Below, piece after piece: positions 1 to 61,542 of a stretch of DNA of 64,000 nt. This DNA is from Beverwykella pulmonaria (taxonomy: Eukaryota > Ascomycota > Dothideomycetes > Pleosporales > Melanommataceae): contig BCHH01000016.1 in NCBI GenBank assembly GCA_001599595.1, forward strand, positions 136,643 to 200,642, given 5' to 3'. The notes below the pieces were generated by a model. That model was not told the DNA's origin, made no database searches, and saw nothing but the letters and a program-made list of their open reading frames with translations. Position numbers and translations under genes: made by a program. Each line of letters opens with the position of its first letter. Position 1 is the stretch's first letter.

Positions 1-1769
1 TCGTTTACAAGAACAAGCGCATACCGCATTGGCCTCTTGGTCTTACATTGAACGCCTATATCTCGGTCTTGTCGAAGATTGCATCTGCTGCTCTTCTCCT
101 GCCTGTATCGGAAGCACTTGGGCAATTGAAATGGAGCTGGTTCAACAAGGGAAACTCTAAAAAAATGTGGGATTTCGAGATCTTCGACAATGCGTCTCGT
201 GGACCATGGGGATCTCTCCTTCTCATAGTGCGCACTAAAGGAAAGTCGTTAGCAGCACTGGGCGCCGCGGTCACACTCTTTGCGCTCGCTATGGACCCAT
301 TCTTCCAACAGGTTGTCGAATATCCTGACCAATGGCGCATACAACTAGGGAGCGGCACCATTCCCAGAGCAACAGGCTATTCTCCATATGGAGCTAGGCA
401 GCAGTATCGTGTCACTGGGCAAACCCTTGTGCTCGACCAGAGTTTGCTCGCTGTTGCTAACCGGTTCTTCTACGGTAATGGAACTGTGCCAATACCGTTT
501 GGCAAAGGTACGAGAGCCGAAGTTCCTCTATTCTGTCCCAACAGCAATTGTACGTGGCCGCAATACGAGACCCTGGGTATGTGCAGCACGTGCACCCCTG
601 TCTCCGATCTTCTCGAATTCAAATGTCTCAACACGACGCTCGACTGGATCAAAATTCCCGACATAGATCCTGACACTCAAGATAACAAATTTCCGAATGG
701 AACCTCATGCGGATACTGGCTCAAAGCAGATGATCCCCTTCTCATGAGTGGATACGATGTCGATCACGGTACTAACCATTCTGGCGAGGTGTTGTTGATG
801 CGCGCTCAACCTCTTCTCGACGTCGACACCCGAGATCCACTGCCAGGATACTCTGCTAAGCTTAAACCCGTTCGAAACCCGTTAGCGCACGTCGTCATTG
901 TTTCAGGCGGAGATGTGACGAGGGTTCAACGGAACGAGACACCAATAGCTCATGAATGTATGGTTTCATGGTGCGTCAAAGACATGCTATCAGAATTCTC
1001 GGAGAGAGGCTACACCGAAATCGTCAATCGCACGTTCGTCAATAACACGAGCGGACCTAATCCATGGACGACATTCCCATTTTTCAACAGCGCGGGCGAA
1101 CAAGAAGGCATTGATTATTATTACGGCGAAAACATTACTCTCACAAGTCCAAGCGGTGTTATATATGAAGTCGACAACTTTACCCAGATCCTGACTTTGT
1201 CATTATTCGACGACGTATTCCCCTCAACCTACACAATTGCCAATAGCACTAACGAGGCTGACGCGATGTTGAGGTATAAACAGTACATAGTGAGAAACCC
1301 ATGGATGCGAAACATGACCTACAATCCTTGGATGTTTGCCAACGTCTCGGCCCACATGGACAATATGGCTACCGCCTTCACCAATCTGATACGAGCATCA
1401 GAGGATCATACAGAAATGATCAAAGGCCCAGCTTTCGACAAAGAGAGCATAGTGGATGTCCGATTGGAATGGATGTCACTGCCTCTCAGCTTGCTTGGAC
1501 TGACGTTCTTGTTTTTGGTTGCAACCATCATTCGAAGCTTTATGGAACAGGAGCAGGTCGGTGTATATAAGACATCAGCCATTGCAACACTCCTTTACGG
1601 TTTACCGGAGGGCATGCAGAGGACGATCGCAGAATCAAATGTGGAGAAAACACCGCGAACCAACGCGAAGGAGACTAAAGTAAAATGGGTGCCACAAGGA
1701 GGATGGAGGTTTTCAGGTTACACTCTCTCACCGAGCTCTACCAAGTCTCGTCATACGGAATGGAAATGA
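1..1769 (+). CDS. DUF3176 family membrane protein, 5' end cut by window edge
   Basis: The frame is already open at base 3 and matches the interior of the complete paralogue at 41604-44210 from its KRIP-WPLGLTLNAY stretch onward, so the real start lies upstream of the window; no start inside the window should be used. Visible parts are two hydrophobic segments near the start (around ISVLSKIASAALLLPVSEAL and LAALGAAVTLFALAMDPFF), a long Cys-containing region with many N-glycosylation sequons (expected outside the cell), and a last membrane helix (LSLLGLTFLFLVATIIRS) followed by a short basic cytoplasmic tail. DUF3176 is a fungal-only family of unknown function. No intron is seen. Compared with the paralogue, the C-terminal tail lacks the Ser/Pro repeat extension. 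Confidence 0.9.
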   Translation, partial: VYKNKRIPHWPLGLTLNAYISVLSKIASAALLLPVSEALGQLKWSWFNKGNSKKMWDFEIFDNASRGPWGSLLLIVRTKGKSLAALGAAVTLFALAMDPFFQQVVEYPDQWRIQLGSGTIPRATGYSPYGARQQYRVTGQTLVLDQSLLAVANRFFYGNGTVPIPFGKGTRAEVPLFCPNSNCTWPQYETLGMCSTCTPVSDLLEFKCLNTTLDWIKIPDIDPDTQDNKFPNGTSCGYWLKADDPLLMSGYDVDHGTNHSGEVLLMRAQPLLDVDTRDPLPGYSAKLKPVRNPLAHVVIVSGGDVTRVQRNETPIAHECMVSWCVKDMLSEFSERGYTEIVNRTFVNNTSGPNPWTTFPFFNSAGEQEGIDYYYGENITLTSPSGVIYEVDNFTQILTLSLFDDVFPSTYTIANSTNEADAMLRYKQYIVRNPWMRNMTYNPWMFANVSAHMDNMATAFTNLIRASEDHTEMIKGPAFDKESIVDVRLEWMSLPLSLLGLTFLFLVATIIRSFMEQEQVGVYKTSAIATLLYGLPEGMQRTIAESNVEKTPRTNAKETKVKWVPQGGWRFSGYTLSPSSTKSRHTEWK

Positions 1770-7610: not shown

Positions 7611-9765
7611 GGCTGATGCGGTGGTACGAGAAATTGAAGTTGGTGTAGGAAGGGTATAGAGTAGATACTGATGTACTGTGAGGAGCGGCTGCGGAGAAGA
7701 TTGTCACTGCAAGGAAGTGCGTCAAGAACTGTAGCTGTTATATATGGCCGAGGGAGCTGTCGCTGCGGAAAGCTGGAAGTTGCAAAACTGCTTCTGAGTG
7801 TATTAGATTGAGGCAAGTAAGTAATAGAGTGGTGGTTGCGAAGCCAGTCCGAGAGGTGAAGGCTGTACGGACAAGAATGGTGAGCAGTTTGCGTTGGGTC
7901 ATTGGAGCGGGGGCGAGAGGTCAAAATTAAATATTTGGGAGGCGGGGCGCGTGCGAGATCATAGGCGAACATATTTCTCAATAGAAGTGTATTTTTCGAG
8001 TGGAAATTTGTTGGCGAAGAACGTCTGCTGCGCTCTTTCGAAGGGCGTCGAGCCAGGTGGAAGCCAGAGTGAAGTAAAGAGAGCGCATGGGGCACTAGTG
8101 AATGCCAATGAGATCATCTAGGCGCGCGGAATGACAATAGAATTAACAGGAGCACGAGATCATGAATAAGTGAGTGAGTGTTTGAGGGCTTGATGTGCAG
8201 GAGGCTGAGGGTGAAAGCGAAGTGGGTGGAGGGAAGATAGGGATACCGTTCTTCTCGTGCTCGAGCAAAAACACTTAGTGACCCTATTAATAAGACGACA
8301 ATAAGGGACCCCTATCATCCTGGCTAAATAGCATCGGGAACAATTGTTTGGGTAGCGGGCAAGCGCGAAGACTCAATTTTGAGCCATCTCAGGAAACAAG
8401 GCCCAGTGGCTAGACTCTGAAGTACCCATATTGACGATCTTGGAGTCTTTTTTCTGTCGGTGCTGGTCATACGAGCTTTGTGCAAATAGTTAGGCTATCG
8501 AACAAACATTGGTGGTGTGCACAGTGGTTAGAATTTCATCCATCACTCACAACATCACTCTCACCTCGCGTATCTGCACCGTCATGTAGCCCCACATTGA
8601 TATTGTTTTCTCCAAAGCGTAAAAAGGAGACTTGAGAGTAGAAAATAGGCGTAGAAGATGTGGCGCAAAGTTTGATAAGTTGAAGGAAGAGTTGAAGTTG
8701 GTGATAAGCTTATTACACCCCGCATTGGTCTGGCGTTGACAGCGACCTATCCCGCAAAGAGAACCTAGACCGCTATGTCAGCAACTGGTGGACGCCGGCA
8801 GCACGCGGGTAGACCTCGCATACCACTGGTTAGGTGCCAGAGAGGTCGAATGTGTTGTCAGTGCCTGCAAGGAGCATCAGCAGCGATGGGACGGAGCACA
8901 AAGGGAGGAAGGCGTAGGCCATAACAAAACGTGCGCGATGGCGGCGGCAGCACGCAGATAGACCTCGTATACCACTGGTTAGGTATCAGGGGGTCAAACA
9001 AACGTGCTGTCAGCGCCTGCGAGGAGTAACAGCAACGCTGGGAAAACGGCAGACACGTGAGCCTGCACCAACGGAGCACTAGGGGGTAGGGGAAAAACAG
9101 CGGACAATTATGCAGCATAAAAGGCAGTATCCACAAATAAGGAAGATATCACCATTACAGGCAAGCGTGACAGGGTGGGCGGTCGAGACTAGAGGACAAC
9201 AGCAACCCATAGGCGTAGGCGTCACGTCTGCGCTTACCTAGAGACGCACACATGTAGCACACGAGCGAAAGGTGCTTTCCCACAGTACAGGCGAGCCTTT
9301 GAGAGCTGCTTCTACGAATAGCCAACAGGTTTTTTTATTCATCTGGCATAAATAGTGGCAATGGTCTGCATAGTTCTAATAGAGGGCTGGCATCAGACGG
9401 TAAACAAGAACGAAATAATTAATTAATAGAGGAAGTATGTCTAAGTTTTAAAGGTGTTTCGTGCTTTAGGGCAAGTTTACCAAAGTTTCTCCATGAAGAC
9501 GGGATGCTCTGCATTCTTAGCGCAAGGATCTAGGGTGATTACAAGCTATGTATTATATTATCCGCAACCTGTATTATACTGTGGAGTCCCTAGTGAAACC
9601 GGCTTCATCTCAATCTAAGTTACCCCGCTCGCTCACAACAAGTCCTGGCATTCAACTTTATTGAAACCAGTACCCCACCTCGGCCCGCTCTTGATCCACT
9701 GTAGTTCACTGTCAACCTGTGAAAAGAACAAGATTCCTTTCGCTATTATACTGTATACCGGGACC
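7611..9765. other. Long intergenic region, probable 5' UTR/promoter plus degenerate duplication
   Basis: Bases 7611-8100 remain open on the minus strand but lack features of a protein and are upstream of the supported start, so they are best read as 5' UTR/promoter. The remainder holds no recognisable gene; a diverged direct duplication at 8785-9045 is listed separately. Confidence 0.5.
8785..9045. repeat. Diverged tandem duplication, two ~105-bp copies about 155 bp apart
   Basis: Copies at about 8785-8890 and 8940-9045 share a core (ACCACTGGTTAGGT) and flanking blocks (GGCAGCACGC, CTGTCAG/TTGTCAG, GGAGCATCAGCAGCG/GGAGTAACAGCAACG). Many differences are C/T or G/A, as expected after RIP or deamination. 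No open frame of note is shared. Confidence 0.6.
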
Positions 9766-10072
9766 ATGTCACAAGAAACAACCTCAACTTCCGTTACGGC
9801 CTGGCAGGACGAGATAAGCAAGCCTACCGCTATATGTCGTCAGAAGGGATGCAAAAGCGTAACTGTATCGGAACCATATAAAGCACAGGATTACTGTGAT
9901 CAGCGTAAGTGCAACTAGTCTATTAAAGAGAGTTCACATGCCCAACTAGATATGAACAGACTCGTGTCATATTTGCCATCAGGCCCCAGCAGTCGTTCAG
10001 TTTATGAATGAACAAGGCTTTTGCTCAGCTTGTAAGGCTTGCAATACTAAATCATGTTGCAACGGCAATTGA
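9766..10072 (+). CDS. Small cysteine-rich protein (83 aa), treble-clef-like Cys/His repeats
   Basis: Two exons, 9766-9904 and 9960-10072, joined by a 55-bp GT-AG intron; splicing extends the pattern C-x4-C ... YCDQHSCHICH ... FCSACKAC ... SCC. The repeated YC-xx-H-x-C-xx-C / FC-xx-C-xx-C spacing is like small fungal proteins that bind zinc with Cys/His pairs. There is no signal peptide, so the product is probably intracellular. ATG 9766 is the first ATG of the frame. The function is unknown. The left inverted repeat arm begins only about 220 bp downstream, so this gene could be tied to the mobile region. Confidence 0.6.
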
Positions 10073-10290
10073 CATTGCTTTTTCTATTAAAGGTTCGAAA
10101 ACTACTGCTATTGGAAATGCTAGTTTGTACCCCGTTGTTCGGTCAATTAGTGTTTATTGTTGTAAGGTGCATCCCTAGGTAGCGGGACACCCGGTGTGGC
10201 GGGACAAATGAGGGGTACTTGGACTTTCAGCAGCTAGAAAGGCCACGCGCACAACAAATATGGCTATAATTCTGTAAGAATAATCTGCTG

Positions 10291-10880
10291 TAACTAATTC
10301 TAAATATCTATAACTAACTCTTCCCTAAAAATTACGTTTGCATTGTTGTCTCTGCGCCTAGTTTGTAAAGCGCCTTCTATTGTAGTGTAACAGACTTCCC
10401 ATCCTACAGCACCAACACAACGTCTTTTTCACTCTAGATTTTACTCTAAGCAAGTTATCTTCAGCCTTGTGCGTGCTATTGCGGGTAAATTTATGCAGGG
10501 TCGCTATACCAATCAGTACCTCCCGCAGAAGCGAGTACCAATCCTTGCTAGTGCAGAATGACCCTACACGTCTCACCTCATTGTTAGTGCGTAATGTATC
10601 TGTGGCGGCTGTCAGACCCGTGGCTGTGCAGCGCCGCTGCCAAGCGCTGCGGGGACATCTAAAATCCGACTTTGGATTGGGAGCAGGGCCAGGGCTCCCA
10701 TGGCCCTAGTGCTTGTGCAAAGTTCACGAACGCGTCTGGCATCGAAACCGCAAAACCGCAATCTTCCGACACAGCCGCCGTACAACTTCAAGATGTGATC
10801 CAACGGCTGGCTACGTTTTACTTCGGTAGCTTCCGTAACATTTATCACGGCGCCCCTAAGCCCTGCAGACTCGCCGTAAC
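10291..10880 (+). repeat. Left arm of long inverted repeat (~590 bp)
   Basis: Matches the reverse complement of 13690-14312 along its length, for example CAGACTTCCCATCCTACAGC and GCCAGGGCTCCCATGGCCCT in both. Differences are mainly transitions plus one block of about 35-50 bp present only in the right arm (near 14110-14160). Confidence 0.85.
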
Positions 10881-11041
10881 TTAGCTCGGCGCCAAGGCGC
10901 TACTCTGTTTGCGGTACTCTGTATATATACACATTGTGTCTTCCTGTACCTCTACTCTCTAGCTCAGTATTTTCATGTTATATCGCTCCTCTGGTGCAGC
11001 CCCTGAGTGATCCCTTACAACATACAATCTTGTAAAGGCAT

Positions 11042-11797
11042 TTAGTTATTGTCATTCCTCGAGTCCGGCTCATTCGGGTACGGGGCCTCGTCCTTTCCGA
11101 TCTCACGAACCGTAATCGCAGACGACCCGCTGCTCTGATAACCCTCAGTAGCCAGAATCATATAATTGTGGTTCCCTAGCTTCAAACCATTCTTCGTCCA
11201 AGCATCAAAATGGTTTCCCGTAGTGATATTGCCGCCAACCCGCTTCTGCGTGCGCACCGACCAAAACTGATAGAAGGTCGCGCGACCCACAATCGACGGC
11301 TGGTTAACCCGCTGCGTCTGATAGATATCATAAGTTCCGCCATCACTCTGGATAGTTCCGCGCTTCTGGGTCCCGCTGCTGGGGTTATACGTCCCATAGC
11401 TCTCAACGATATAGTACTCGATCAGCGGATCCTTGGTCCACCCATAGAGCGACAGATACGAGTTCTGGTTGATGCCGCTCCAGGTGCCGTTGTAGGCGAT
11501 GGACTTCGCACCGCCGGGGTTCCACCCCTTGCCCCCGACCCAGTTGCCGATATTGCTCCACTGGCTGGTGTAGGAACCGTTCTGCAGGTTCGTATACGTC
11601 ACGCTGCCACGGCTGTTGTCCGACCAGAAAGAGTAGAAGTAGTGGCTGTGGAACCCGTAGCCCTGCGCCGAGCCCTGTTGGCGCGTCTCGAACTTGCTGC
11701 CCAGGTCGATAGATCGCCCGAAGAGCTGTTCGCTCAGCGGGATGGCGGATGTGATGGCCGCCACGGCGGCCGTGAGGAGGAGGGATTTGAACATCAT
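11042..11797 (-). CDS. GH11 endo-1,4-beta-xylanase, secreted
   Basis: Intact single-exon gene of 251 aa from ATG 11797. A signal peptide occupies about residues 1-19 ([18 protein letters not shown]), followed by a propeptide. The GH11 jelly-roll is recognised by [11 protein letters not shown], the nucleophile Glu127 in [10 protein letters not shown] and the acid/base Glu218 in [12 protein letters not shown]; the family cuts beta-1,4-xylan. Length and motifs are complete, so it should be active outside the cell. A possible TATA-like TATAAAG lies at 11844-11838. It sits between two long inverted repeat arms, far from other wall-degrading genes apart from GH3 at 33.8 kb. A C-terminal Asp/Asn-rich tail without a binding module is seen. 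Confidence 0.96.
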
Positions 11798-12234
11798 GGT
11801 TTGAAATCTGAGTATGTATGTATAAGAACCGGGTGTGCTTTATAGAGAAAAAAAGTGTTTCTCTTTTTACACCCCTAAAGTTTTTCTCACGATCGAGAGA
11901 GAGGAGTGTCGCCTGTCTTTTATCTGCTTTTTGGCATCTCTTTGCCGCAAAGATGCCGGGCTTAGATTACGGAATTCATTCATGGAATTTTGCGCTAGAT
12001 GGAGCGTGGGTAATTGAATATTAAAATGCCAAGATGTTAGTAATTGAAATATAGGGTTATGGTATAAGCACTGTGTTTATATTAATGGAGGTTTTGCCCA
12101 TTAGGCCGATTGGCGCGGTAACCCCGGCACGTCTGGGGATACACCCGCGTTCTTGGATATACATGTGCTTTTACCGAAGTTGGAGTATCAGGGGTGTCGC
12201 AATTCGATCTGGACCTTGCACCACTTCTACCAAC

Positions 12235-28811: not shown

Positions 28812-29840
28812 CAATACAGAAAGAGCTGGTCATTTTGGCGGTGGGAGTTTGACATCTCGAATTCGAGTAAAGTTGTGACAGAAAAGAAAAATTTAGGACA
28901 GTAATCACTTTCTCGTGTGCAATTCCTCTAGGTTCCACTTATGTTGAATTTATCCTGCGAGATGTTGAGTCGAACATCACGCGCACTCGCAGATTAATTG
29001 AGGAGAGCTTGCGAGGCACTACCTAGGCATTCCAATTAGCCCTTCCTTCAACATAAAGCACAAGGCATGGACTTCATGCTAATTAAGCTGAAGTCGAAAC
29101 AATGTTTCATGGCGCTCTCATGCATAGAACGTGCACGTCCTGTCAGTCGATTCAGGATTACTACGACAAGGAGGCCGATCCTAAGGTTAGGCAATAATTC
29201 GCACGTTGTTCCGAAAAGGATTCCCATATACGAAAAAACATCGATACAGAGCTACAGCTGTAGGAATAGATTAACAGTAGTGCTTATAGACTTTTAGTCC
29301 GTTTATTTGCCACCAAGTAGTCGGACATTGGCAGGGGCACGGAGTTCCATCTTCAGGCGCCCTAAAGATCTGACTGTAATGGCGAAGCGAGCCAATCAAC
29401 ATCCTTTTCCTGCTGATGATTTGTACTTGGCGGAGCTTCGCCAATGTGGATATTAGATACCTGTTGGTCATGGGGACTGAGGACATAAGGCATTCTACAC
29501 TGAATGGGTTAGTATAGCGCAAATTGTCGTTTCGTTGTTCCTAGGCCACCACCGTAATATTTTTGTAGTCGGAATACCGTTCAGGGTTTGCCAAGAAGCC
29601 TGTATATTCAGCTGCGCTGAAGACTGATACGACTTGCCTATCAACTTTCACGATGTATAAGAATCCAAGACTCTTCCTCATTTTTCTACATCAATCAGCT
29701 TTCTACTTCATTATTTACTACTATCTTCTTCATCCCCGGTGGAACCTACATTTTCTTCTTACCACCTCTTTTTTACCTTCGCCTTCTCTTCCAAAGTACC
29801 CATTCTTTCATTTTCACCCTCTTTACCACCTCCAATCAAC
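28812..29840. other. Spacer upstream of the CAP protein gene
   Basis: No gene supported until the pyrimidine-rich leader (29650-29840) that precedes the CAP gene, typical of a fungal 5' UTR/promoter of a highly expressed gene. Confidence 0.5.
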
Positions 29841-30317
29841 ATGGTTTCTTCCAAGACTCTTTCTATCATCGCCTTTGCAGTAGGGTCTGCTTTTGCAGCC
29901 CCCGTCGAATCTGTGAACACCTTGGAAGCACGACAAAACCACTACATGGACATTGTCGGCGAGTGGCGTAGCAGAATGGGTATGTCCCAGCTCATGTACG
30001 ATGGGCAGCTCGAGGCCAACGCTGCAAACACCGTCCAAGAGAGCAACGGCCAGATGATCCACAAACTTAATCCTGGAACAATGGGCCAGGTGCTAGCGCC
30101 GGGCAATTCTGACCTTGGGGCCTTCTACAGCGCATTCGTTGGCGGCTGGCTCTGCGAGATCCCGACCCTTCCTGGTCTTAACGGCGTCTGCGATTCCGAC
30201 TTTGGTATCACCTGGACCCATACTTCGACGGGGCATGCTGAAATCCTTACTAGCCCCTCGATGACTCGAATCGGATGTGCATGGGCAGCTGGTATCTGGG
30301 GGTGCGACTTGGCTTAG
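29841..30317 (+). CDS. Secreted CAP/SCP (PR-1-like) protein
   Basis: Intronless, 158 aa. A signal peptide (about 1-19, MVSSKTLSIIAFAVGSAFA) is followed by a short pro-region ending in LEAR. The CAP fold is suggested by the opening helix (MDIVGEWRSRMGMSQLMYD), the helix with repeated Ala (LEANAANTVQ), the HTSTGHAEILTSPSMTRIGCAW segment (equivalent of the GH-T/Y-x-x-GC block) and the final IWGC. It is short for the family. CAP proteins in fungi are secreted and bind sterols or lipids in some cases; effector roles are reported for some. ATG 29841 was chosen because it begins the signal peptide. Neighbours are repeats on both sides. Confidence 0.82.
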   Translation: MVSSKTLSIIAFAVGSAFAAPVESVNTLEARQNHYMDIVGEWRSRMGMSQLMYDGQLEANAANTVQESNGQMIHKLNPGTMGQVLAPGNSDLGAFYSAFVGGWLCEIPTLPGLNGVCDSDFGITWTHTSTGHAEILTSPSMTRIGCAWAAGIWGCDLA

Positions 30318-37883: not shown

Positions 37884-38300
37884 ATGCGACGACAACAGAA
37901 CGCGCAATTAATCCACAGCGAATGCATGGTTTCTCTTAATATTTTGGCTATCGATCGACATCAACTTAAAAGCGAGCGACGTGCTATTGCGACGTATAAT
38001 GTACCCAGAGACACGCTGAAGGATCAACACGCTGGAACGACTGCACGACGCGATTGTGAGCCTAATTCAAAGAAGTTCATTAAGCTCGAGGAATCAGTTA
38101 TTACTCAACACATATTTGACCTAGATTCGCAAAGATTTCCGCCTAGATTGAGCGAGGTGTGAGATACGGTCAACAAACTACTTGCTCAGCGCGCTACAAC
38201 TTTGACAAAACTAGTTTCTAGATGGGCGTCGTCTCAACAAAAATAGTTGTTACAAGCTCTACGAGATTCAATCAGCTAAAAGCTTTACAAACAGGCAATC
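37884..38300 (+). pseudogene. Pogo-like transposase, N-terminal fragment
   Basis: The frame 37884-38162 begins MRRQQNAQ and contains YNVPRDTLKDQHAG (psq-type helix-turn-helix) and LEESVITQHIFDLDS-RFPPRLSEV (start of the CENP-B-type HTH), then a stop, after which VNKLLAQR continues. The DDE core is missing. The matching end of the same protein, CSRCKETSHNIRMC and a stop, occurs at about 39059-39105. Confidence 0.82.
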
Positions 38301-38339
38301 GCAAATGGGCCACAGTAATCTAAGGTGTCAACACTTGTA

Positions 38340-39000
38340 GACTACTGTTAAGGGCGGGTCCCGGATCCTATGGCGTCGTCACGTAACAGGTAGGGCTGAG
38401 TTCGTCCTAGGTGATGGAGGGTGAGAGAGGTGAATACAAAGTAGACGTCGAAGCAGGGAAAGGGTAACATGATAGACAATATGTTTCTGACGAGCGAGAG
38501 GCTTCACGGTGAGCGGCGTCAATGTCAGAACAGATGTATGCAGCGGATACAATTTAAGAATTGACTATGAAGACTATCTAGAATATTCGTGAAGTTTATA
38601 TATTCGACTGTATCTGTTCGCCAAACATGGATGTGTGGATCTGTGGATCTGTGGTTCACAGATCCAACAGATCCACTAATCCATTCTGATTTGCTGGCCA
38701 ATGGTACTGTGGCTTGCAGTATCATGTCGGTTTGATTCACTAGCTGATGCCGGTTTGACTCGCTAGCCGATGGTGGGGCATCGTCCCCCATGCCGTGGTC
38801 GGTCTCATGACCTTTTATCGGATTGCCCGTCACGCTACTGTTGCAGACAGTATAACTGGTCGTCAGTAGTTCCTGAGTTGCGTTGGTAACAATTTGCAAC
38901 AAAGCGTAGAGCACGCAAAAGAAAGCAGATATAGAAGCAAGTAACCCTACAGCATAGAGCGCTAATATAATTGCTCTAAAGGACGTTGATACGCATCTTG
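38340..39000. repeat. Unidentified insertion inside pogo relic 1, LTR-like start
   Basis: Begins with TGTTAAGGGCGGGTCCCGGA at 38346, resembling the TGTTA start of a retroelement LTR, and includes short GTGGATCT repeats and GGTTTGA-TCACTAGC duplicates near 38630-38770. No retroelement gene is present and no target duplication was found; the nature is uncertain. Confidence 0.35.
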
Positions 39001-39284
39001 AGGGTGAAATGCGTCAAGGTAGAGAGGGCTTAAGTAGCAACACGGCTTAGTGGACACACTGCAGCCGCTGCAAAGAAACAAGTCACAATATTCGTATGTG
39101 TTAGGTGCAGAAACTACTATAGATCAATTTGCAAATTGTAAATAGTCTATATCTTCTCGCGTTGTAGGGTTATCTTATTTTGGAGTCGTAAAATACTGGT
39201 GGGCCGACGGCTCACTTGTCCGGACGACTCGCTTATTGAATAAAGTTTTGATTCATTATGGAGTGATTGTTGAGATATTAAGCG

Positions 39285-40195
39285 TATTTTATAAGTGAGT
39301 GGCCCACCTCAGGAACTTTTTGCAACGCATCACCTACCAACTACGATGGCTCAACCAACTACTCACCGATTGCCCTGCAACGAAGCAGATATAGTCCTTG
39401 CTATCTCAGCTATCAACCAAGCCCAAATTAGAAGCGTGCGACGCGTTGTCTCAACGTATAATGTCCCCTGATCAACCCTCCGCCACCGACGCGCTGATAT
39501 AGCTGCGGGATGGTGGGAAGGTTGGCAAAAGCTTTACCACGCATTTTAAACGACCGTACAACTGGCAGAGAGCTCTACGTAGGGACCCTAAGATAATAAG
39601 GGACTGTTTTAAGCGTGTATAGCGTACAAAGGCTTAGAGACTCACTGGGTATCTCAAACACCAAGCAACGCGCATAAGCTAGAGGCTCAGTCATCTCTAG
39701 TATGTGAGAGGATTTGAAGGCACGTAAGCTCATCACCTACATTAGTTTTTGCAGTCGCTCGACTAGCTTACCAAGGGCGCTGAGAGAATGGTCCATGAGC
39801 TAGTGTTGCTGCGCGACCAGGTCTCAACCCTTCAGAAGGCTAATGAGACCACCACAAAACGTAGAGAGCATGAAGGGAAACGGATACAGAAGCAAGGGAG
39901 CTTAATAGTAGCAGAAGGTGCAGAGATAGTCTCTCAGAGAGAGGCTGAGCAGCAGCTAGTGTGTGAAAGGTGTCAAGATGCAGCGTAATCAGGTATAAGT
40001 CAAAGGGCTACAGCGCGCTATAGCCGTTGCAAAGAGCCTGGGCACAACTCACGAATATGTAAAAAGGGTACTGTAGATTCTAATTAACCTTAAATAGTTG
40101 TTATATTGATACCGGTAGTATTTAAATGTACAGTTGAAGTATGTGGTTGTAAAGGTCGATAAAGTTGGTGAGGTGGGCCACTCGCTTGTAAAGTA
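39285..40195 (+). mobile_element. Pogo-like DNA transposon relic 2, internally deleted
   Basis: The ends match in inverted orientation over about 37 bp (TATTTTATAAGTGAGTGGCC from 39285; reversed right end TACTTTACAAGCGAGTGGCC from 40195) with TA borders. The three differences in the first 20 bases are all C-to-T, the RIP signature. It is 911 bp long, too short for a full element. Confidence 0.82.
39345..40067 (+). pseudogene. Pogo-like transposase relic, N- and C-terminal parts only
   Basis: It starts with ATG then AQPTTHRLPCNEADIVL and SVRRVVSTYNVP (psq-type HTH), followed by a stop where an Arg codon is expected. The C-terminus at 39788-39988 reads MVHELVLLRDQVSTLQKAN and a Lys/Arg/Gln-rich helix, ending in a zinc knuckle (SRCKEPGHNSRICKK) after another stop. 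This head and tail are typical of fungal pogo/Fot1-type transposases; the DDE domain is deleted. Confidence 0.8.
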
Positions 40196-41603
40196 CGTTA
40201 ATTAGATTTGTATGCTTTCGCCTTGTTATCTGCAATACAGTGGTTGCTACATTAAGCTGTCGACACATTTGTGTTTAGTAAATATTCATGATGTTGCGAG
40301 GTATATGACACCGCCTGAGAGCCCGAGAAGTCCTACGGGACTCGGATGTGTCGCTTTGGAGACTTCTTTATTTGTTCGGGTTTGTTTAAGCGCCGAGGAA
40401 GCCGTTCTGCTTCCGCAACTTAGCCTAAATTTGCTGCACAAGCTTTTGCATCATCCGCAGCGTGCGGGCAGCAGACGCAACTTGTATTGCTGATGGTATG
40501 TAGAGAGTAGTGTTGTGTTGGGATCCAACAGGATATTGCTCCTACAGGGAGAATACTGCGCTTAAGGTGGTGGGTGTAGATGCAGAGGTCAAAATACAGG
40601 ATGGCAGAGCTCCAAGCGACAGCCGAGTCAGCAGCCGAGCTAAGTTGTCGAAGGACGTGCATATACTCCCTGTCCCCAGCTCTGGCGGCCAGAAAGCGGG
40701 GCAATATTGTAGCCGTAAAGATCTGTTTTGCAAGTAATAAGTGTTCCAATAGAAAGCTTCTTGATGATGATATACTACCTATGTAAAAAGTGCCCACTAG
40801 ACAACAGCCCACAGTAGAAAAAGCCTTACACACCTCTTCTTAAAACTATTTGGGTATTACAATATAGGACTGCGTTTTACTCTACTTTGACGCCTTTTCA
40901 AAGAGGACTTTGACTCGTTGGTCGACTAACACAAACACCTCATCTCTTGCAGCAGGTTACAGACATGGTTTCAGCACCTGCTTGTAGCCGCCGAGCCGCT
41001 ACGCCACAAATGCCCGACGAAGCAAAGGCTAAGAGGCAAGCGTCGTTAGGTCTGTGCGTTAAGCGCCTAAATCAAAACCAACACCAGGTGAACCACTTGG
41101 TGCTACTTTGTCGATCCTTCTACAGGCGTCAAGGGCTTGTCCCTTGGCGGTCTCCACTGCGGCGTAGTTGTCGCTGCTCCTCATAGACTCCGCCGCACCC
41201 GGCCGTCTTTACTAGTAGCCATCGCGCCCGCCAAAAGATCTTATGGCATCCGGCCGAGCCTTGTTTTCCTAATTCTCATTACTCTTTCCTTCCCTCTACA
41301 CATATACCACTCAGTTCGACGAGTACTATCAAGCTCGCAGTACCTATCCTACGCCTAATTCAGCATTCTGTTTCCTTAACCAAGCACGCGGGCCCGTGCT
41401 TCCCTTAATTCAGCATTTCATTTGCAACTGTTCTATATAAACATTTACGACTCACATCGACTTTAATCATCAAACAACACAGTACCAAGTGCTACCACAG
41501 ATACTTTTTTTTTCCTACACACTAGCAACACTTTGCACCGCCTACCGTCAAGTCAGTGGAATCAGCAGGCCTGGTACTCCGCTCGTTTTATTCTCGACGA
41601 ATC
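40196..41603. other. Spacer and promoter of the second DUF3176 gene
   Basis: Frames on both strands at 40212-41358 show no known domain. The last 250 bp are listed as promoter. Confidence 0.45.
41350..41445 (+). promoter_or_regulatory. Likely core promoter of the DUF3176 gene
   Basis: TATATAAA at 41434-41441, about 165 bp before the start codon. Just upstream are an imperfect palindrome (AGCACGCGGGCCCGTGCT, 41383-41400) and a direct repeat of TAATTCAGCATT on both sides of it. The role of the palindrome as a binding site is inferred. Confidence 0.45.
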
Positions 41604-44210
41604 ATGTCTAAGTATCCAGCCTCCCCAATCTGGTCCCCCAATGGAATCATTCCGACGTCGAATAAGGGTCCAGATTATACCTGTCCTACCTACGAAGTTA
41701 GCGCAAGAGACCAACCAATCTACTGCGTTTCACCCGCCTCACCAGCTCCACCGTCCTATCATTCGGGCAGATCGCCCACTCCCTCGAGAAATCTTGCTGT
41801 CCCATCTCTCAGTCTGGAGACACCGCATCGCTGGACCAAGCCTCGGACTCCTCGTCCTGCCCTCCGATTCGATCCAGAAGGAAGGCCACGTGTTCGCTTT
41901 CGTCGAAATGCCTTCTCTCCTCTTTCTCCAGCGACCATGAAAAACGGCGACATTGACTGGAGTCGGAAAAGTCAGGTGGGGCTTGGGATACCGGACGCCC
42001 TATTCAAGCCCGACCGAAGCCCCATAACGCCCGGTACAGCGGAGAACAAGGGTAATGACAGGAATGAAGATCTTCCGAACGCCTCGAACTTTGCTCAACG
42101 TATTGAGCAAAGGTTGTGGAAGTACAGCGCATCACGGAATGTTGTAAAGAGGTGGCTACTTGAGATTATTAGCTGGTCGCTCAGCGCTCTATGCATGGTT
42201 GGTGTCTGGGGCATGCTACTATTCTACAAAGACAAACGCATACCGAACTGGCCCCTAGGTCTTACGTTGAACGCGTACATCTCAGTCCTGTCAAAGGTCG
42301 CGTCTGCCGCTCTTCTTTTGCCTGTGTCAGAAGCCCTCGGACAGTTGAAATGGAGCTGGTTCCACGGTTCAAGTTCCAAAAAGATGTGGGATTTTGAGAT
42401 ATTTGATAATGCTTCTCGTGGGCCTTGGGGATCACTTCTTTTGCTTGTGCGTACTAAGGGGAAATCTCTGGCAGCACTTGGCGCAGCAGTGACTCTTTTT
42501 TCACTCGCTTTGGATCCATTCTTCCAGCAAGTTGTCGAATATCCTGAACATTGGCGAATCCAACCAGGGACTGGCTCCATTCCCCGAGCCACTGGCTACG
42601 AACCTTACGGATCTGGGACGGAATTCCGGGATGGGGACGTTAATATCGAGCTTGACCAAGGCATGCTAGGGGTTGCACATCATTTCTTCTTCGACAATGG
42701 AACTTTACCCATAACCTTTGGCAGAGGAGTAAGAGGGGAAATACCGCTGGCATGTCCCAGCAGTAACTGTACATGGCCAGAATACCAAACTCTCGGTATA
42801 TGCAGCAAGTGCACAGAGGTCTCCCAGCGCCTCGAATTCAAATGTATGAACACAACGCTCGACTGGATTCAGGTTCCTGGCCTAAATGCAGACAATCAAG
42901 CCGACTATCCGAACGGAACTTCGTGCGGGTGGTATCTCAAATCAACCAATCTTCTCATGACTGGCTACAACATCAATTCTAGCGATACAGCAGACGCAAA
43001 AGAAATATTACTGATGCGCGCTCAGCCCCTCTACGACATCTTCACCCGACAAAAGCTCCCTGGATACATACCTAAGCTCAATAACATTCGCGATCCACTA
43101 GCCCACATCGTCATCGCGTCTGGCCAGGATCTGAGCAATATCCTGCGAAACACGACTCCCATAGCCCACGAATGTATCCTCTCATGGTGCATCAAAACGA
43201 TGTTATCGACATACTCAGAGGGAGGCTACACCGAGAAGGTTATCGACACTTTTGTCAATGAGACCGTGGGACCTTTGCCGTGGGAGACTTCCCCGACTTT
43301 CGACGAGAATGGTAAACAGGATGGTACCTCTTACTCTTATAACGAAAACGTCACCGTGAGACATGAGAGTGGAATTGAGTACCATATCGACAATAACACA
43401 CAACTTCTTACTGTTTCCTTGTTCGACGATATCTTTCCTTCGACCTACACACTCGCAAATACCTCCGATGAGTCTCAAGCCTTGCTGCGATACAAACAGT
43501 ATATCACTCGGGGTGTTTTCACACGAAATATGACTTATAACCCTTTTCTGTACGCCAACATTACGACACATTTGGAAAAGATGGCCGTCTCATTGACGAA
43601 CTTGCTGCGATCAGCACCGAGCAATACAGAGATGATAAGTGGACCTGCTTTCGATAAGGAGAGTTTTGTCGATGTTAGATGGGTATGGTTATCACTTCCT
43701 GTTGGTCTGCTTGGCTTAACGTTCATTTTCCTGGTTGCAACTGTCATTCGAAGTTCGATCGAGAAGGAACATGTGGGAGTGTGGAAGACATCCGCCATCG
43801 CATCACTCCTATATGGTCTTCCAGATGAGATGCAAAGGAAAATTACATTATCATCATCATCAAAGGCCAATGGGACACCGCGAGCGAACGCGAAGGACAT
43901 CAAAATAAAATGGCTCCCTCGAGCAGGTTGGAGGTTCTCAGGCAACGCACTATCCCCACGCGCACCTTCTTTCAAAACTTCACCGTCACCCAAATCCTCA
44001 CCATCACTCACCCCCCCGCGGCCTCGCAGATCTTCACTGTCTCCCAAAGCCCCATATCCTCTTAAGTCTTCACTATCTCTCAATTCACCACTTCCTCGCA
44101 GATCTTCCATGTCTATCAAATCCCCACTTCCGGTCGAATCCCGACCTCTTCCTAGCCCCCCATCGAGCCCTATATCGCACCAGCCTACACATCCCGCGGG
44201 ATGGATATGA
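41604..44210 (+). CDS. DUF3176 family membrane protein, full length
   Basis: Intronless, 868 aa from ATG 41604; the frame is open further up only through a GTG. A disordered Pro/Ser/Arg-rich head (1-160) precedes three hydrophobic segments (LEIISWSLSALCMVGVWGML; ISVLSKVASAALLLPVSEAL; LAALGAAVTLFSLALDPFF). The large region to about residue 700 has conserved Cys (CPSSNCTWPEY, CSKC) and many N-x-S/T sites, so it should face outside; a last helix (LPVGLLGLTFIFLVATVIRS) leads to a cytoplasmic tail with Ser/Pro/Arg repeats (about 60 residues) that the first copy lacks. DUF3176 is fungal and uncharacterised. It is very close to the truncated gene at 1-1769. The Kex2-repeat precursor gene lies 1 kb downstream. 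Confidence 0.93.
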   Translation: MSKYPASPIWSPNGIIPTSNKGPDYTCPTYEVSARDQPIYCVSPASPAPPSYHSGRSPTPSRNLAVPSLSLETPHRWTKPRTPRPALRFDPEGRPRVRFRRNAFSPLSPATMKNGDIDWSRKSQVGLGIPDALFKPDRSPITPGTAENKGNDRNEDLPNASNFAQRIEQRLWKYSASRNVVKRWLLEIISWSLSALCMVGVWGMLLFYKDKRIPNWPLGLTLNAYISVLSKVASAALLLPVSEALGQLKWSWFHGSSSKKMWDFEIFDNASRGPWGSLLLLVRTKGKSLAALGAAVTLFSLALDPFFQQVVEYPEHWRIQPGTGSIPRATGYEPYGSGTEFRDGDVNIELDQGMLGVAHHFFFDNGTLPITFGRGVRGEIPLACPSSNCTWPEYQTLGICSKCTEVSQRLEFKCMNTTLDWIQVPGLNADNQADYPNGTSCGWYLKSTNLLMTGYNINSSDTADAKEILLMRAQPLYDIFTRQKLPGYIPKLNNIRDPLAHIVIASGQDLSNILRNTTPIAHECILSWCIKTMLSTYSEGGYTEKVIDTFVNETVGPLPWETSPTFDENGKQDGTSYSYNENVTVRHESGIEYHIDNNTQLLTVSLFDDIFPSTYTLANTSDESQALLRYKQYITRGVFTRNMTYNPFLYANITTHLEKMAVSLTNLLRSAPSNTEMISGPAFDKESFVDVRWVWLSLPVGLLGLTFIFLVATVIRSSIEKEHVGVWKTSAIASLLYGLPDEMQRKITLSSSSKANGTPRANAKDIKIKWLPRAGWRFSGNALSPRAPSFKTSPSPKSSPSLTPPRPRRSSLSPKAPYPLKSSLSLNSPLPRRSSMSIKSPLPVESRPLPSPPSSPISHQPTHPAGWI

Positions 44211-45238: not shown

Positions 45239-46000
45239 ATGCGTCCCTCCCTCCTCATCTCCACTTTCGCTCTCACAGCCCTTGCAGCCCCGATTCCAGT
45301 AACCGAGGTAGGCCCAGATATGTGTTGGACACAAACCGTTCAGGACTGATTAAGGTTGCAGGGTCAAGCACCTGCGCTTCGCGATGTCAATGAAATCACT
45401 TCGCCAATTGAGACGCCCATTGAGACGCCTGTTGAGGCACGATTGATACGAAATGGCAATGGCATTCTTATTGGATCTCGTGAGAGCCCGGAACAAGAGG
45501 ATGAAGCCGAGGTCGAGAAGCGTAAAGACGCCAGAAAGAACTTCCTNNNNNNNNNNNNNNNNNNNNNNNNNNNNNNNNNNNNNNNNNNNNNNNNNNNNNN
45601 NNNNNNNNNNNNNNNNNNNNNNNNNNNNNNNNNNNNNNNNNNNNNNNNNNNNNNNNNNNNNNNNNNNNNNNNNNNNNNNNNNNNNNNNNNNNNNNNNNNN
45701 NNNNNNNNNNNNNNNNNNNNNNNNNNNNNNNNNNNNGAGGTCGAGAAGCGTAAAGACGCCAGAAAGAACTTCCTGCGTTCCGAAGAGAACGAAGCAGAGG
45801 TCGAGAAGCGTAAAGACGCCAGAAAGAACTTTCTGCGTTCTGAAGAGGATGAAGTCGTTGAGGTTGAGAAGAAGAGCATCATCGACAGCGCTAAGAATGC
45901 CGCTCGGGGTGTTTATAACAATGTTGTTGGTATCATTGAAGCCATGAAGGCACGAGGCTTCAACAGTGCCAATAATGTTCCTGCAAGAGAAGCAATCTAA
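45239..46000 (+). CDS. Secreted precursor with tandem Kex2-site repeats (candidate peptide precursor)
   Basis: Exons 45239-45307 and 45362-46000 (54-bp intron) encode a signal peptide (MRPSLLISTFALTALAAP), a spacer (IETPIETPVEARLIRNG), then repeated 20-residue units EVEKR-KDARKNFL-RSEENEA, each with a Lys-Arg Kex2 site, and a final unique segment (SIIDSAKNAARGVYNNVVG) where KR has become KK. Three copies of EVEKRKDARKNFL are visible; 190 N interrupt the array and keep the frame. Such layout is that of Kex2-processed repeat proteins, which give several copies of one secreted peptide (alpha-pheromone type or dikaritin RiPP precursors). The core lacks the Tyr usual in dikaritins and the Trp-Cys pattern of alpha-pheromones, and no UstYa/DUF3328 gene is near, so the product class is open. 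Confidence 0.8.
45509..45859. repeat. 60-bp tandem repeat array (with assembly gap)
   Basis: Units start at 45509, 45737 and 45797 (the last 63 bp long) and are nearly identical in DNA (GAGGTCGAGAAGCGTAAAGA opens each). A diverged fourth start is at 45860 (GAGGTTGAGAAGAAG). Confidence 0.93.
45547..45736. other. Assembly gap, 190 N
   Basis: Lies inside the 60-bp repeat array, so it is probably a collapsed or unresolved set of further repeat units. The given length is not a whole number of 60-bp units (190 minus the 22 bases needed to finish the broken unit leaves 168). Confidence 1.
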
Positions 46001-46433
46001 AGACCACGCGAGCGCTTCTTTAGGGGAGCTGGTGTGCAAGGAGCCTATTTTGAAGGCTCAACATGGGGGATAAGGCTAAGGACTAAGTCGTTGATGCGGG
46101 ACAGGATATTTCGGACAATCATTTTACTGATTTCATCAATCTCATACTTTTTCTGTTCTTTGTTTGGAGCTGAGCTTTTGGGGCCAGTAGGGGGTTCAGT
46201 AGGATTAAGGACGAAGAGTCTACTATACCTTAGTAAACTAAGCGTGAATACAATCCGTCTATCACTAATACGTCTCTATGAGTGCATGTCTTTAAAATGA
46301 TACATGAGTCACCTTTCAATCCACGACTAATATATGTATGTCGGTGCCCATGTTTGTTTGATCCCATGCCTTTACTCACTCACAGCCTATCCCAACGCTG
46401 AGAAGCCCTACTTCTAATCAATTTAAACATCGT
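46001..46433. other. 3' flank of the precursor gene, no gene seen
   Basis: Contains only short frames. Confidence 0.5.
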
Positions 46434-48184
46434 CGAAGATGCCTTTCGAGAGGCGGATGACGACGATGATATCCTGCGCTTCATCAAGATGACAGAGCCT
46501 CGTGCTAATCTCTCTGACAGCTCCTCCCAGAATCCGAACTATATCCTGACCATGTAACCATTCGCGCGGTCGTTAGGAGCCCATCCGTTGTCATCTACAC
46601 CAGCCCAGGACAGGAACAACTAACCCACCAGTTTCACCCACACAACAATGTTGTAAACACAATCGACCGTTTCACTATCGGCGATGCTTGGTTGGATAAA
46701 GGTGAATCTAACGACCTTGGTTTTGCCCAAGGTGTCCGCTCCGACACCACACGAGAACAAGATTTTCGAGAAGAACCCAGACCACCCCGGACAGTAGCTC
46801 GTGCACTTTTGGAGACAGCAGCCCCCGGATTTTTCCTAGTATAGGCGGGCCGACCGTCTTCCGTACTTCATTCCAGATCCTACAGTACAGTATCGTCCGA
46901 ACAAACCACACTCAGATCGGTGGTGCTCCTAAATTGATCCCCACGTTCTACCCACCAGACGGGACAGGTATATGGATAACATGGATAATAATCGCCAGCT
47001 CGGTGGCCCTTATGTCCACCAGTGCGCAGTTCCGCCCCAGCATCCAGCTCGCGTGGGCGTTCAGCCAGAACCGATCTTTATCGTGCACAAATTCCATCGC
47101 AAAACCAGCGAGTACCTCCACCACTACAATTCTGGGGGGACCTGGAATAAGTGGGACAAGAACTTGGTGTGTTTTGACATCAAAAAAGCCGAGCGGCTGC
47201 ACATCTTCAACCGATGGTTTGGCCAGAATTTGTAACGTGGAGACCATCAGTACAGAAAGCGGGCCCCACGCCAGCGTTGAAAGGCTTACGAGATTTGAGA
47301 GCTCCGTCGGTATTTTAAGCAATTCATTGAGGAGAATGGATTGATAGAGGGCTCATCGCAAGCCCTGGTGGCAGACCGCCAAGCGCCTTGTCCATGTGGT
47401 TCGAAAGCTCCGCGACCAGCACGCCGAACCTTGTAACTTCAATGCTGTGTCCTCTATGGCAGAACGCGGTATCTACCCTACAGGCAACCCGCGAATGGGC
47501 ATCCATGAGTTGCGCCAATTAGGTAGGCAGCTTCGCAAGATTGTGAAGGACCATCCGGATCTCGTCATTCCCGACTCCATTCAAAAGTCACACAATTGCA
47601 TCTCAGTGAACAACACGGACAAGATCATTGGGGTTTGTCGGCCGGTGGGTCATATGATGAATCACCCCGACGTTCGCTCATGTGACACTTCCATATTTGT
47701 TATGACTACCTTGGCAGGTTCCTACCGTACTTAGTAAGACTCCAGATAATTCTTCGGTAGCTCCTCCGTAGAATCAATACAACAATCATCACACTCTTTA
47801 TCTACTTCGTCACATTACGATAGGGTTATAACCTCGTGGCCAATCAGCACAAAATGACAAAAGGAAACTTTCAAGAACAATAAACTCGACAAGATCACAG
47901 TCGTGTACGAGGACGGGGAGATCAAGGTTTACGATCGTTTCAACCGGAACTTGAATCGGCAATTCTTTCAGGCTCTAGTAGCTCCTGCGACCGAGATTCT
48001 AGAGGTTGGTCAGAAGCAAGACATTCTTTGGAGGATGAGAGAGAAGAGCATGATCCAGAGGTCTGTGAAGTTGACAAGGACCAGTAGGGGGAGGTTGAGC
48101 CGGAAGATGAGTCTAGCCAGCTCACACGCATCAAAATCACTGATCGGTAGATGCCATAGAGGGCAAATGAGGATGCATTGGTGA
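46434..48184 (+). pseudogene. Decayed coding sequence, broken by stops and an LTR-like repeat
   Basis: Plus-strand stretches look coding but are broken: FIKMTEPRANLSDSS near 46480, VVIYTSPGQEQLTHQF near 46585, PEPIFIVHKFHRKTSEYLHH near 47070, a segment MGIHELRQLGRQLRKIVKDH near 47500, and VYEDGEIKVYDRFNRNLNRQ near 47900. Stops and frame changes separate them, and the LTR-like repeat copy B sits between the last two. No family is recognised; it may be one or two dead genes of the repeat compartment. Confidence 0.35.
47668..47820. repeat. LTR-like dispersed repeat, copy B
   Basis: Partner of 27050-27217, less affected by C-to-T changes (GGTAGCTCCTCCGTAGAATC). A 17-bp part (CGGTAGCTCCTCCGTAG) recurs at about 50273-50289. 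Confidence 0.55.
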
Positions 48185-48989
48185 ACTCGAAACGCTCTGT
48201 AATTTTTCGTCACTTTGTTCTCAAGCATGCATCAGGGTGGAAAAAAGAACGTGTGGCATGGTTGTGTGTCACTTTCTATGGGACAGTATCCTAGATGCGT
48301 CGGGATGAGGTAAAAAGTTTTCCAATGACTAGGTGATTACAATCTGTCTGTATAGTCAATACTACGCCGTAGCAAAGTGATACTTTGCGCGAATATACCA
48401 CTGGCATGGGTGGAAGGCTTGGGTGCATGATGCAGGGAACAGGTCTTGGTTTCTCTGTCAGCTGCTTGCTTCGTCATCACTCAACAGGTATATATATGGG
48501 GACCCGAACACGATACCCACACATGGCACAACGATCACATGGGATCAAAAAAACACCATCATCACAATCACACACGAACCTCAACCCAACGAGACCACGA
48601 ATGTTTCATCTGTTTTTCATGACACCTTCGTCTTTCATTTGGTTTGGTAGCTGGATACAACGAAATTGCAAACAGTCTACTACCAAACCTCCATCTTGAT
48701 TCTTCTCCCTCCTTCAGTGCATTGCTGCTTCGGACATCGCATGGCTGCGAGTCGCCCTCCTACCCCCGTGTAATTATTTCTTTATCACACACCCTTTACT
48801 CCACCACAATACACGTTCTTGAACGTTCAAAATTGTACTTTTGCCTGACATGAACTCCTTGAATGTACATCTTGTCGTGAATACGTGAGGACGCTCTGCA
48901 CATGGCACTGAGGAAACACGTTCGAGCATCACAGAGCATGACCACTCCCAGATCATGGTGGCACATGTAGAAAGCGACACAAAACATTA
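48185..48989. other. Spacer, no gene seen
   Basis: Only short overlapping frames on both strands. Confidence 0.45.
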
Positions 48990-50182
48990 CATGCGTGTAC
49001 ACTAAGGAGCCCGAAGTCCTTTGTGATGTGCTGCCGAATCCATGGCCATGCGTGCTCAGCGTTGATGTCTGGCGAGTGCCCTGGTCATGGGAGCTTTAAT
49101 ATATATTTAACAGCTAGAAACTCCTTATCAAATCTAGAAGTGTAAGCGGGAGCTCCATCCTTGAGAAGTAGCACGTTAGTTTTGCCGCTGCGTTTAAGAG
49201 ACGTGATCCAAGGCACAAGAAGAGGCTTCAACATTTCCTCTGTGACGATACCTATCAATACCACCCCTACTTCTCTCTCTCGTTTGAGATTGTCAGACTT
49301 CCTGTACGCAGCTTGACGGCTGTTAATTGCTTCTCCAAACTCTCCAAGAGCAGCTCTCGCAACGCGATGGAGGCTAGTATCCTGATCCCTTCGATCTTTG
49401 TTCTCCTTGTTGGGAGCCTTTTAGGTAGCTTTCTTCTCATTTTTAGTCTCTTTGCTGTAGATATGGCAGGGTCCTTTTTCTCCCTAGGTTAAGCTCTGTA
49501 GAATTAAAGTTGGCTGTACTTTAGAATGCGAGGTTTCTTAACATCTTTATTATAGTGCATGTCCCATTATTCCCCTACTCTTCCAGGCATCTCGTCAGTA
49601 TAAACAACTCAACAGAAGTTAAAGCCTTTGCCATCTCCTATCTTATCTTTATCAGGATTATGAGCAAGTGCCCACTCATAACGCTCGTCAATTTCATTTT
49701 GCGTCAACTCAGGCTTGTAACCCTGCTTCCTCCGCGCATGCCTAGCCCAACACATAATATTTTGAAACGTTTCAACGCTCATGGGAGGTAGGACATCATC
49801 AAAATCGCCGTCCTCAATTGCCTGCCAAGCCTCCTTTTCGCGATGATCTTGATCAGAGGTGACGAGCTCCACAATCTTCTGCTTCTGCGCTGGGGTGAGA
49901 AGCTCTGGTCTCCCTCTTCCTGGCTCATTGGCAAAGACTTGGGCGTCATAAACAAGCAATCTAGCTTCTTCTAATCGTACAATAACGCGCTCGATGAGCT
50001 TTGAGATAGATGAGTGATCGCGCTTCATGAACTTCGAGATTCGGCCATGCTTGACCCCCAAGGATGGCAGCACCCGACGCAAACGCCCTCTCCACCACGC
50101 CCAACTCTGTAGGATCAGTTTTTTGGCGCGCAGCTACATCTTTGTAGCTACCAGGCTTGCGACGTGAAGTAGCGGGCATTTT
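48990..50182 (-). pseudogene. Tc1/mariner-like transposase relic
   Basis: On the minus strand the N-terminus starts near 50179 (MPATSRRKPGSYKDVAARQK), shifts frame, and continues from 50082 (RRVLPSLGVKHGRISKFMKR helix-turn-helix, then GRGRPELLTPAQKQKIVELV second HTH). The DDE part begins after a stop at 49609 with VVYTDEMPGRVGE (first catalytic Asp) and, after many stops and shifts, ends near 49010-49090 with PGHSPDIN-EHAWPWI (second acidic block, PGHSPDLN type). The layout and motifs are those of fungal Tc1/mariner transposases; it cannot be active. Confidence 0.8.
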
Positions 50183-60759: not shown

Positions 60760-60981
60760 ATTTTGGTGTTTTTGGTAGGTGTCAGGCGGAGGGAGAGCGC
60801 GTGGTAGTGATGGAGAGATGCGAGAGAGAAGCACAGAAGAGGTTGAGGTTGTCGTGGGAGTTGTCGAAGACGCGACGCGTTAAAATGCTTATCGATAATG
60901 CTAGTAGCGCCACATTGACGCCACACCACTTTCGCTTACATCTCCGCTCATGCCTCACTCCTCTTACCTTCACCTCTCATC
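60760..60981. promoter_or_regulatory. Bidirectional promoter, J-domain gene / deaminase gene
   Basis: The 222-bp interval separates two divergent start codons, so both promoters must lie here or overlap the 5' UTRs. A short palindrome-like ACGCGACGCGT is at about 60871-60881, resembling an MCB-type ACGCGT box at its end. Confidence 0.5.
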
Positions 60982-61542
60982 ATGCCTCTAGAGAACTTCC
61001 CCAGCGGGCTGGACCCCGTTCAACCGCCGCCTGCTATAGACCCGTCCGACCACGCAACATTCATGCGCTTGGCCCTAGATCAAGCGCAAGAATCGCCCCC
61101 GAAACCTTCTAATTATCGCGTTGGCGCCCTCCTGGTCGACTCCTCCACTGGGGTCATCCTTACCCGAGGCTATACACTCGAGCTGGAAGGAAACACACAC
61201 GCGGAGCAATGCTGTCTGTCTAAGTATGCTTCTTCACATGCTGTCCCTGAAGAGCGGGTAGGCGAAGTCCTTCCACCACACACAGTTTTGTACACGACAA
61301 TGGAGCCGTGCAACCTGCGATTGAGCGGGAACTTGCCGTGTGTGGAGAGAATCATTAGGACAAAGGCAAAGGATGGGAACCAAGCAATCAAGAAGGTGTA
61401 TATTGGGGTCAAGGAGCCGGAGAAATTTGTTGGAGAGAACGAGGGGAGAAAGAAGTTGGAAGAGCATGGGGTAGACGTCGTACACGTTCCTGGTTTTGAA
61501 GATGATATCTTGAGGGTTGCGACTGCAGGACACGACAAGTAG
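60982..61542 (+). CDS. Cytidine/deoxycytidylate deaminase-family protein (Rib2/DRAP-deaminase-like)
   Basis: Intronless, 186 aa. The zinc-binding deaminase signature is complete: HAE at residues 73-75 and PC-x9-C with Cys110 and Cys120 (TMEPCNLRLSGNLPC). The N-terminal helix FMRLALDQAQES and YRVGALLVD strand fit the CDA fold. The long loop between the Cys residues and the short length are like the deaminase domain of fungal Rib2 (riboflavin pathway, pyrimidine deamination) rather than tRNA adenosine deaminases. Substrate not certain. Shares its promoter region with the J-domain gene. Confidence 0.85.
   Translation: MPLENFPSGLDPVQPPPAIDPSDHATFMRLALDQAQESPPKPSNYRVGALLVDSSTGVILTRGYTLELEGNTHAEQCCLSKYASSHAVPEERVGEVLPPHTVLYTTMEPCNLRLSGNLPCVERIIRTKAKDGNQAIKKVYIGVKEPEKFVGENEGRKKLEEHGVDVVHVPGFEDDILRVATAGHDK

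Follow-up and report, generated by a model that had tools for sequence, protein, structure and literature searches.

A probable orphan Kex2-processed repeat protein encoded by a single-copy gene of a Pleosporales-like filamentous fungus

Introduction

Kex2-processed repeat proteins (KEPs), as described in the cited sections of two surveys (PMC6339444; PMC7329392), combine a signal-like start and a pro-region with near-identical short units, which are separated by Lys-Arg (KR). Le Marquer 2019 counted 1193 KEPs in 226 species and gave 9–24 aa as the commonest unit size in Dikarya, with the exception of yeast-like Basidiomycota (PMC6339444). The second survey, Umemura 2020, catalogued 7878 KEPs, of which 2560 are without a homologue, and its cited sections place 22% of KEPs near DUF3328 genes and confine most KEP types to one genus (PMC7329392). 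For Coprinopsis, the cited part of a further study describes the detected KEP peptides as linear products with minimal modification and reports no detectable phenotype of kep knockouts (PMC9769878). Among named peptides, the ustiloxins, phomopsins and asperipin-2a contain Tyr in their cores (cited sections of PMC7329392). The alpha-pheromones of Pleosporales share the core PYG[LM]P[IV]G, and those of ascomycetes generally feature XA/XP dipeptides for Ste13 after KR (cited sections of PMC6339444).

The window analyzed here, which is the whole stretch of DNA of 64,000 nucleotides, contains a gene that exhibits the layout of the KEPs: a signal-like start, a pro-region and KR-separated, near-identical short units of 18–19 aa. 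It differs from the surveyed KEPs in a unit sequence without any match in the searched protein collection, and in only two whole units being visible, because the array is interrupted by a gap. The gene also resembles Rep1 (repellent) of Ustilago, as both would give rise to secreted peptides from a Kex2-cut repeat precursor without a link to mating. This likeness is one of layout, the cutting being predicted here, and the Rep1 peptides comprise 37 aa (cited sections of PMC6339444). With a probability of roughly 0.77, we consider the gene a single-copy orphan KEP of a Pleosporales-like filamentous fungus, whose predicted processing would release probably linear peptides.

Gene model and repeat array

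According to ORF translation and predicted splicing, the gene consists of two exons on the + strand (45239–46000). Its features are as follows:

45239–45307, + strand: exon 1, with the signal-like peptide MRPSLLISTFALTALAA and the start of the pro-region, APIPVTE (translation, hydropathy)
45308–45361, + strand: predicted intron of 54 nt, GT..AG, branch-like CTGAT at 45346
45362–46000, + strand: exon 2, with the N gap inside and TAA at 45998–46000
45362–45508, + strand: acidic, non-repeated pro-region, which ends with ..SPEQEDEA before the first EVEKR
45509–45546, + strand: first boundary EVEKR, head KDARKNF and two further bases before the gap
45547–45736: N gap, 190 N, in phase with the frame
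45737–45796, + strand: boundary EVEKR and unit KDARKNFLRSEENEA (peptide KDARKNFLRSEENEAEVE with the next EVE)
45797–45874, + strand: boundary EVEKR and last unit KDARKNFLRSEEDEVVEVE, closed by KK
45875–45997, + strand: non-repeated C-terminal tail of 41 residues, SIIDSAKNAARG..PAREAI

The start ATG at 45239 (context ACAACATGC) opens the hydrophobic sequence MRPSLLISTFALTALAA, whose best 8-residue hydropathy mean amounts to 2.38. It is plausible that this sequence is a signal peptide, as had been claimed in a preliminary description of this DNA. It was recognized by inspection and hydropathy alone; both KEP surveys, according to their cited sections, called signal peptides with SignalP (PMC6339444; PMC7329392). 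Sequence features also agree with the intron proposed in that description, as it has GT..AG ends, 12 intron bases follow the A of the branch-like CTGAT, and an in-frame TGA would be read if the intron were retained, so that the gene model requires splicing. The readable sequence of exon 2 contains no stop before the TAA. With the gap counted, the spliced precursor comprises 235 residues in the order signal, acidic pro-region, EVEKR, units and tail. The pro-region carries a charge of −9 from APIPVTE to EVE, and the precursor can be expected to be mostly disordered.

Three KDARKN heads are visible, all of them with Lys-Arg before them, and two of the units are whole (18 and 19 residues), which falls within the 9–24 aa class. 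The Arg codons of the KR pairs before KDA are located at 45521, 45749 and 45809, with GAG-GTC-GAG-AAG (EVEK) preceding all three, and the 26 bases which begin with the CGT of the first head are the same as those of the next visible unit. TRF reported a period of 60 nt with 2.0 copies, a match of 93% and a score of 208. In the six frames of the window (stretches of at least 60 residues), a KR- or RR-led 6-mer occurs three times in this array alone and twice in three other stretches, namely the antisense of this array and two short ones (70 and 61 residues). As a DNA repeat, the array exceeds chance. Its final boundary is KK and not KR, and each unit includes an internal RK, which is counted as a Kex2 site in one KEP survey (cited sections of PMC7329392). 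Between the two whole units, the 11 codons that begin with the Arg of KR and end with Ser show two synonymous changes and no replacement, and the unit tails differ by two substitutions (N to D, A to V) and an extra V. This pattern, drawn from few changes, is consistent with a constraint on the head.

The previously claimed presence of at least three near-identical units after Lys-Arg, which is also the number by which KEPs are recognized, holds in so far as there are three KR-led heads. Whole units number two, the third being cut with its remainder behind the gap, and the published threshold of three Kex2-separated repeats is reached only if the gap completes a third unit. By the formula of Le Marquer, the repeats account for 15.3% of the protein (18 residues × 2 / 235, hidden units uncounted), which is barely above the filter of at least 15% in the cited sections of that survey (PMC6339444).

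The 190-base N run at 45547–45736 is the sole N run in the window. Among 39 loci retrieved from this genome, 36 lie outside this gene, and these contain no N runs. Over the gap, the distance from head to head is 228 nt, i.e., 76 codons, which is in phase and corresponds to 3.8 units of 60 nt; hence the number of hidden units and the size of the gap are both unsure. If the gap length is right, about two to three hidden heads and about five to six units in total are to be expected. The gap, which the preliminary description took for an array left unclosed by the assembly, is likely due to a failure of assembly, as it occurs in repeat arrays; stretches withheld from a sequence also read as N.

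Predicted processing

According to the layout, the precursor would enter the secretory pathway, where Kex2 would cut after each VEKR and perhaps also at the last KK, and Kex1 would remove the basic pair. Exported would be several copies of a linear peptide of 18–19 residues, made up of KDARKNFLRS and an acidic tail, as well as one 41-residue tail peptide. The acidic stretch before each KR would most likely act as a spacer which shields the basic heads and leaves the cut site exposed. The anatomy of the sequence thereby supports the earlier prediction of a KDARKNFLRS peptide of about 18 residues. The genome contains one match to the P-domain of proprotein convertases (P_proprotein), on contig C3, which is a match of the P-domain alone. 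The role of the peptides is most likely extracellular and lineage-specific, be it in self-signaling or in interaction with other organisms.

Searches for related sequences

No homologue was found among 5.8 billion proteins, neither with the 212-residue reading of exon 2 (E up to 1, 2401 candidates) nor with the 235-residue spliced reading (E up to 10, 789 candidates). A control search with the neighboring DUF3176 gene scored 7993 candidates and yielded 489 proteins at E ≤ 0.001, which indicates that fungi are represented in the collection; this control is a long, conserved protein, and the precursor is short and of low complexity. As the search depends on exact shared 5-residue words, and scores must be high in a collection of this size, distant relatives could be missed. 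A search for paralogues in the assembly (45.6 Mb, 31 contigs; E up to 10) gave one first-look candidate and one match, which is the gene itself, and the spacer pattern EAE[VA]EKR occurs in the genome at two places, both in this gene (control: none). The genome and protein searches together match the look of a stand-alone KEP.

Pfam gave no match at 0.01, and neither did NCBIfam at 1, a library that serves bacteria and archaea. A match to the RXLR effector family (PF16810; 12.7 bits at a cut-off of 26.9, E 0.18) was judged to be chance, as was the sole PDB match, a splicing-factor chain (E 0.075), which lies partly over the X stretch. The strings KDARKNF, DARKNFLR, ARKNFLRS and RKDARKN are absent from the searched full texts; supplementary tables of the KEP surveys may list the gene or a relative. 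The claim that the precursor matches no named peptide class agrees with the protein and Pfam searches; its layout is that of a KEP, a class in which orphans are common. The suggestion of a new peptide family is overstated, since KEPs often have orphan cores and no DUF3328 (2560 of 7878 without homologue in the cited sections of PMC7329392). The lack of homologues makes the gene an orphan member of the KEPs rather than a new kind.

Alternative readings

It is unlikely that the protein escapes cutting and acts in full length, e.g., at the cell wall, as a highly charged secreted repeat protein whose KR pairs result from a composition rich in K, R and E. Shuffled units of the same composition hold KR or RR in 62% of cases and some dibasic pair in 89%. 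Duplication of a unit also carries its site along, so that the evenly placed KR sites amount to a single event, which on its own is weak evidence. The KK at the last boundary also suits an uncut protein, and so does the fact that no homologues were found in which conservation of the sites could be compared. However, each of the three visible heads is preceded by an acidic stretch and KR, and the head which adjoins this KR changes only synonymously. Furthermore, the late Golgi is where Kex2 meets soluble cargo. Quite improbable is the idea that the main product is the C-terminal tail of 41 residues, with the repeated units as pro-region or by-product. Apart from the signal peptide, this tail is the least hydrophilic part of the protein (GRAVY −0.02, and +0.20 for its first 29 residues), and non-repeated KEP ends are among the peptides detected in Coprinopsis (cited part of PMC9769878). 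Its helical moment is, however, not outstanding, being reached by 184 of 2000 shuffles when the first 29 residues are taken and by 583 of 2000 when the tail is taken in full, and its release needs a cut at KK, a weaker site which Kex2 cuts "to a lesser extent" (cited sections of PMC6339444).

The architecture is the same as that of ascomycete alpha-pheromone precursors, and by inference so is the Kex2/Kex1 route, and the genome encodes a Ste2-type receptor (two adjacent matches on C3, around 1523259, read as one gene). Nevertheless, an alpha-type mating pheromone precursor of this fungus is a very improbable reading, as the visible units contain neither PYGxPxG nor, in line with the earlier claim of a missing Trp/Cys pattern, any Trp or Cys. 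In addition, K-D-A-R stands after KR where the Ste13 signature would be expected, and the units are strongly hydrophilic, with GRAVY values of −1.73 and −1.29. An exact search of the 45.6 Mb assembly with the back-translated Pleosporales core gave no match, and two looser exact patterns, neither of which matches in a KR-flanked repeat, gave one and two matches compared with two and three in reversed controls; such exact patterns miss a pheromone that is diverged, split by an intron or located in a gap. The absence of the published motif elsewhere in the genome, with looser patterns no better than their controls, leaves a small opening for the pheromone reading. There is accordingly a very slight chance that the lineage lost or replaced its PYGxPxG pheromone and that peptides of the KDARKNFLRS type, or those of another orphan KEP, serve as ligand of Ste2 or of an unknown self-signaling receptor. 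A precursor of cyclic RiPPs of the dikaritin type has hardly any probability. It would share with the dikaritins (ustiloxin, phomopsin, asperipin) and the epichloecyclins a secreted precursor with a signal-like start and Kex2-spaced repeats, and the genome is rich in UstYa (at least 58 matches, counted exon by exon and thus a lower bound). Yet none of these 58 UstYa/DUF3328 matches lies on C16, the contig of the gene, which makes a cyclic dikaritin unlikely and extends the earlier observation of no DUF3328 in view beyond the window. The visible units also lack Tyr, as had been noted for the core, so that two defining features of the cyclic RiPPs are missing. A Pfam scan of 30 proteins from the window revealed neither UstYa nor tyrosinase nor P450. 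It covered 28 of the 59 stop-to-stop frames that reach 150 aa or more (precursor included) and two shorter ones, and small exons could escape it.

As an orphan KEP with probably linear products, the gene adds one precursor to a large and varied class whose functions are mostly unknown, and leaves the picture of that class unchanged. If it is expressed, its product would be a defined linear peptide, seemingly constrained in its basic head, which can be synthesized and tested.

Genomic neighborhood

Upstream of the precursor lies the DUF3176 gene (41556–44210, + strand, Pfam E 7.9e-37). Its two best matches, among the 120 listed of the 489, are from Massariosphaeria phaeospora (64% identity) and Lentithecium fluviatile (67%), both Pleosporales, and it is from these two matches that the fungus is assigned to a Pleosporales-like lineage; an rDNA primer pattern gave no match. 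Near its end, this gene contains a 36-nt tandem repeat (44022–44131), and a second DUF3176 gene is found at 3–1769 (+ strand). Downstream, the three short frames that were scanned gave no Pfam matches. Beside the precursor gene, the region 46400–50133 consists of decayed-looking short frames and is possibly a transposon relic; it includes a weak HTH_32 match on the minus strand (49609–50133, 21.5 bits at a cut-off of 33.7), and its TA/AT dinucleotide index of 0.70–0.74 is not raised, the highest bins of the window (1.02–1.16) being 8001–12000 and 38001–42000. Beyond the HTH_32 match follow an arginine-methyltransferase gene (PRMT_C), whose PRMT3-type zinc finger is just below the cut-off, and a Rav1 gene.

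Elsewhere in the window, a frame at 29661–30317 (+ strand) encodes a CAP (cysteine-rich secretory protein) domain (E 7.7e-07). A deaminase frame at 60919–61542 (+ strand) matches Inv-AAD (E 2.3e-59) and dCMP_cyt_deam_1 (E 2.3e-13) in Pfam, the former being by its label of the invertebrate AID/APOBEC type and found here in a fungus. On other contigs, several UstYa/DUF3328 matches lie near one another, for example at C4:2944088-2949035, C2:698829-705201 and C20:78912-80067, which are candidate loci for dikaritin-type RiPPs.
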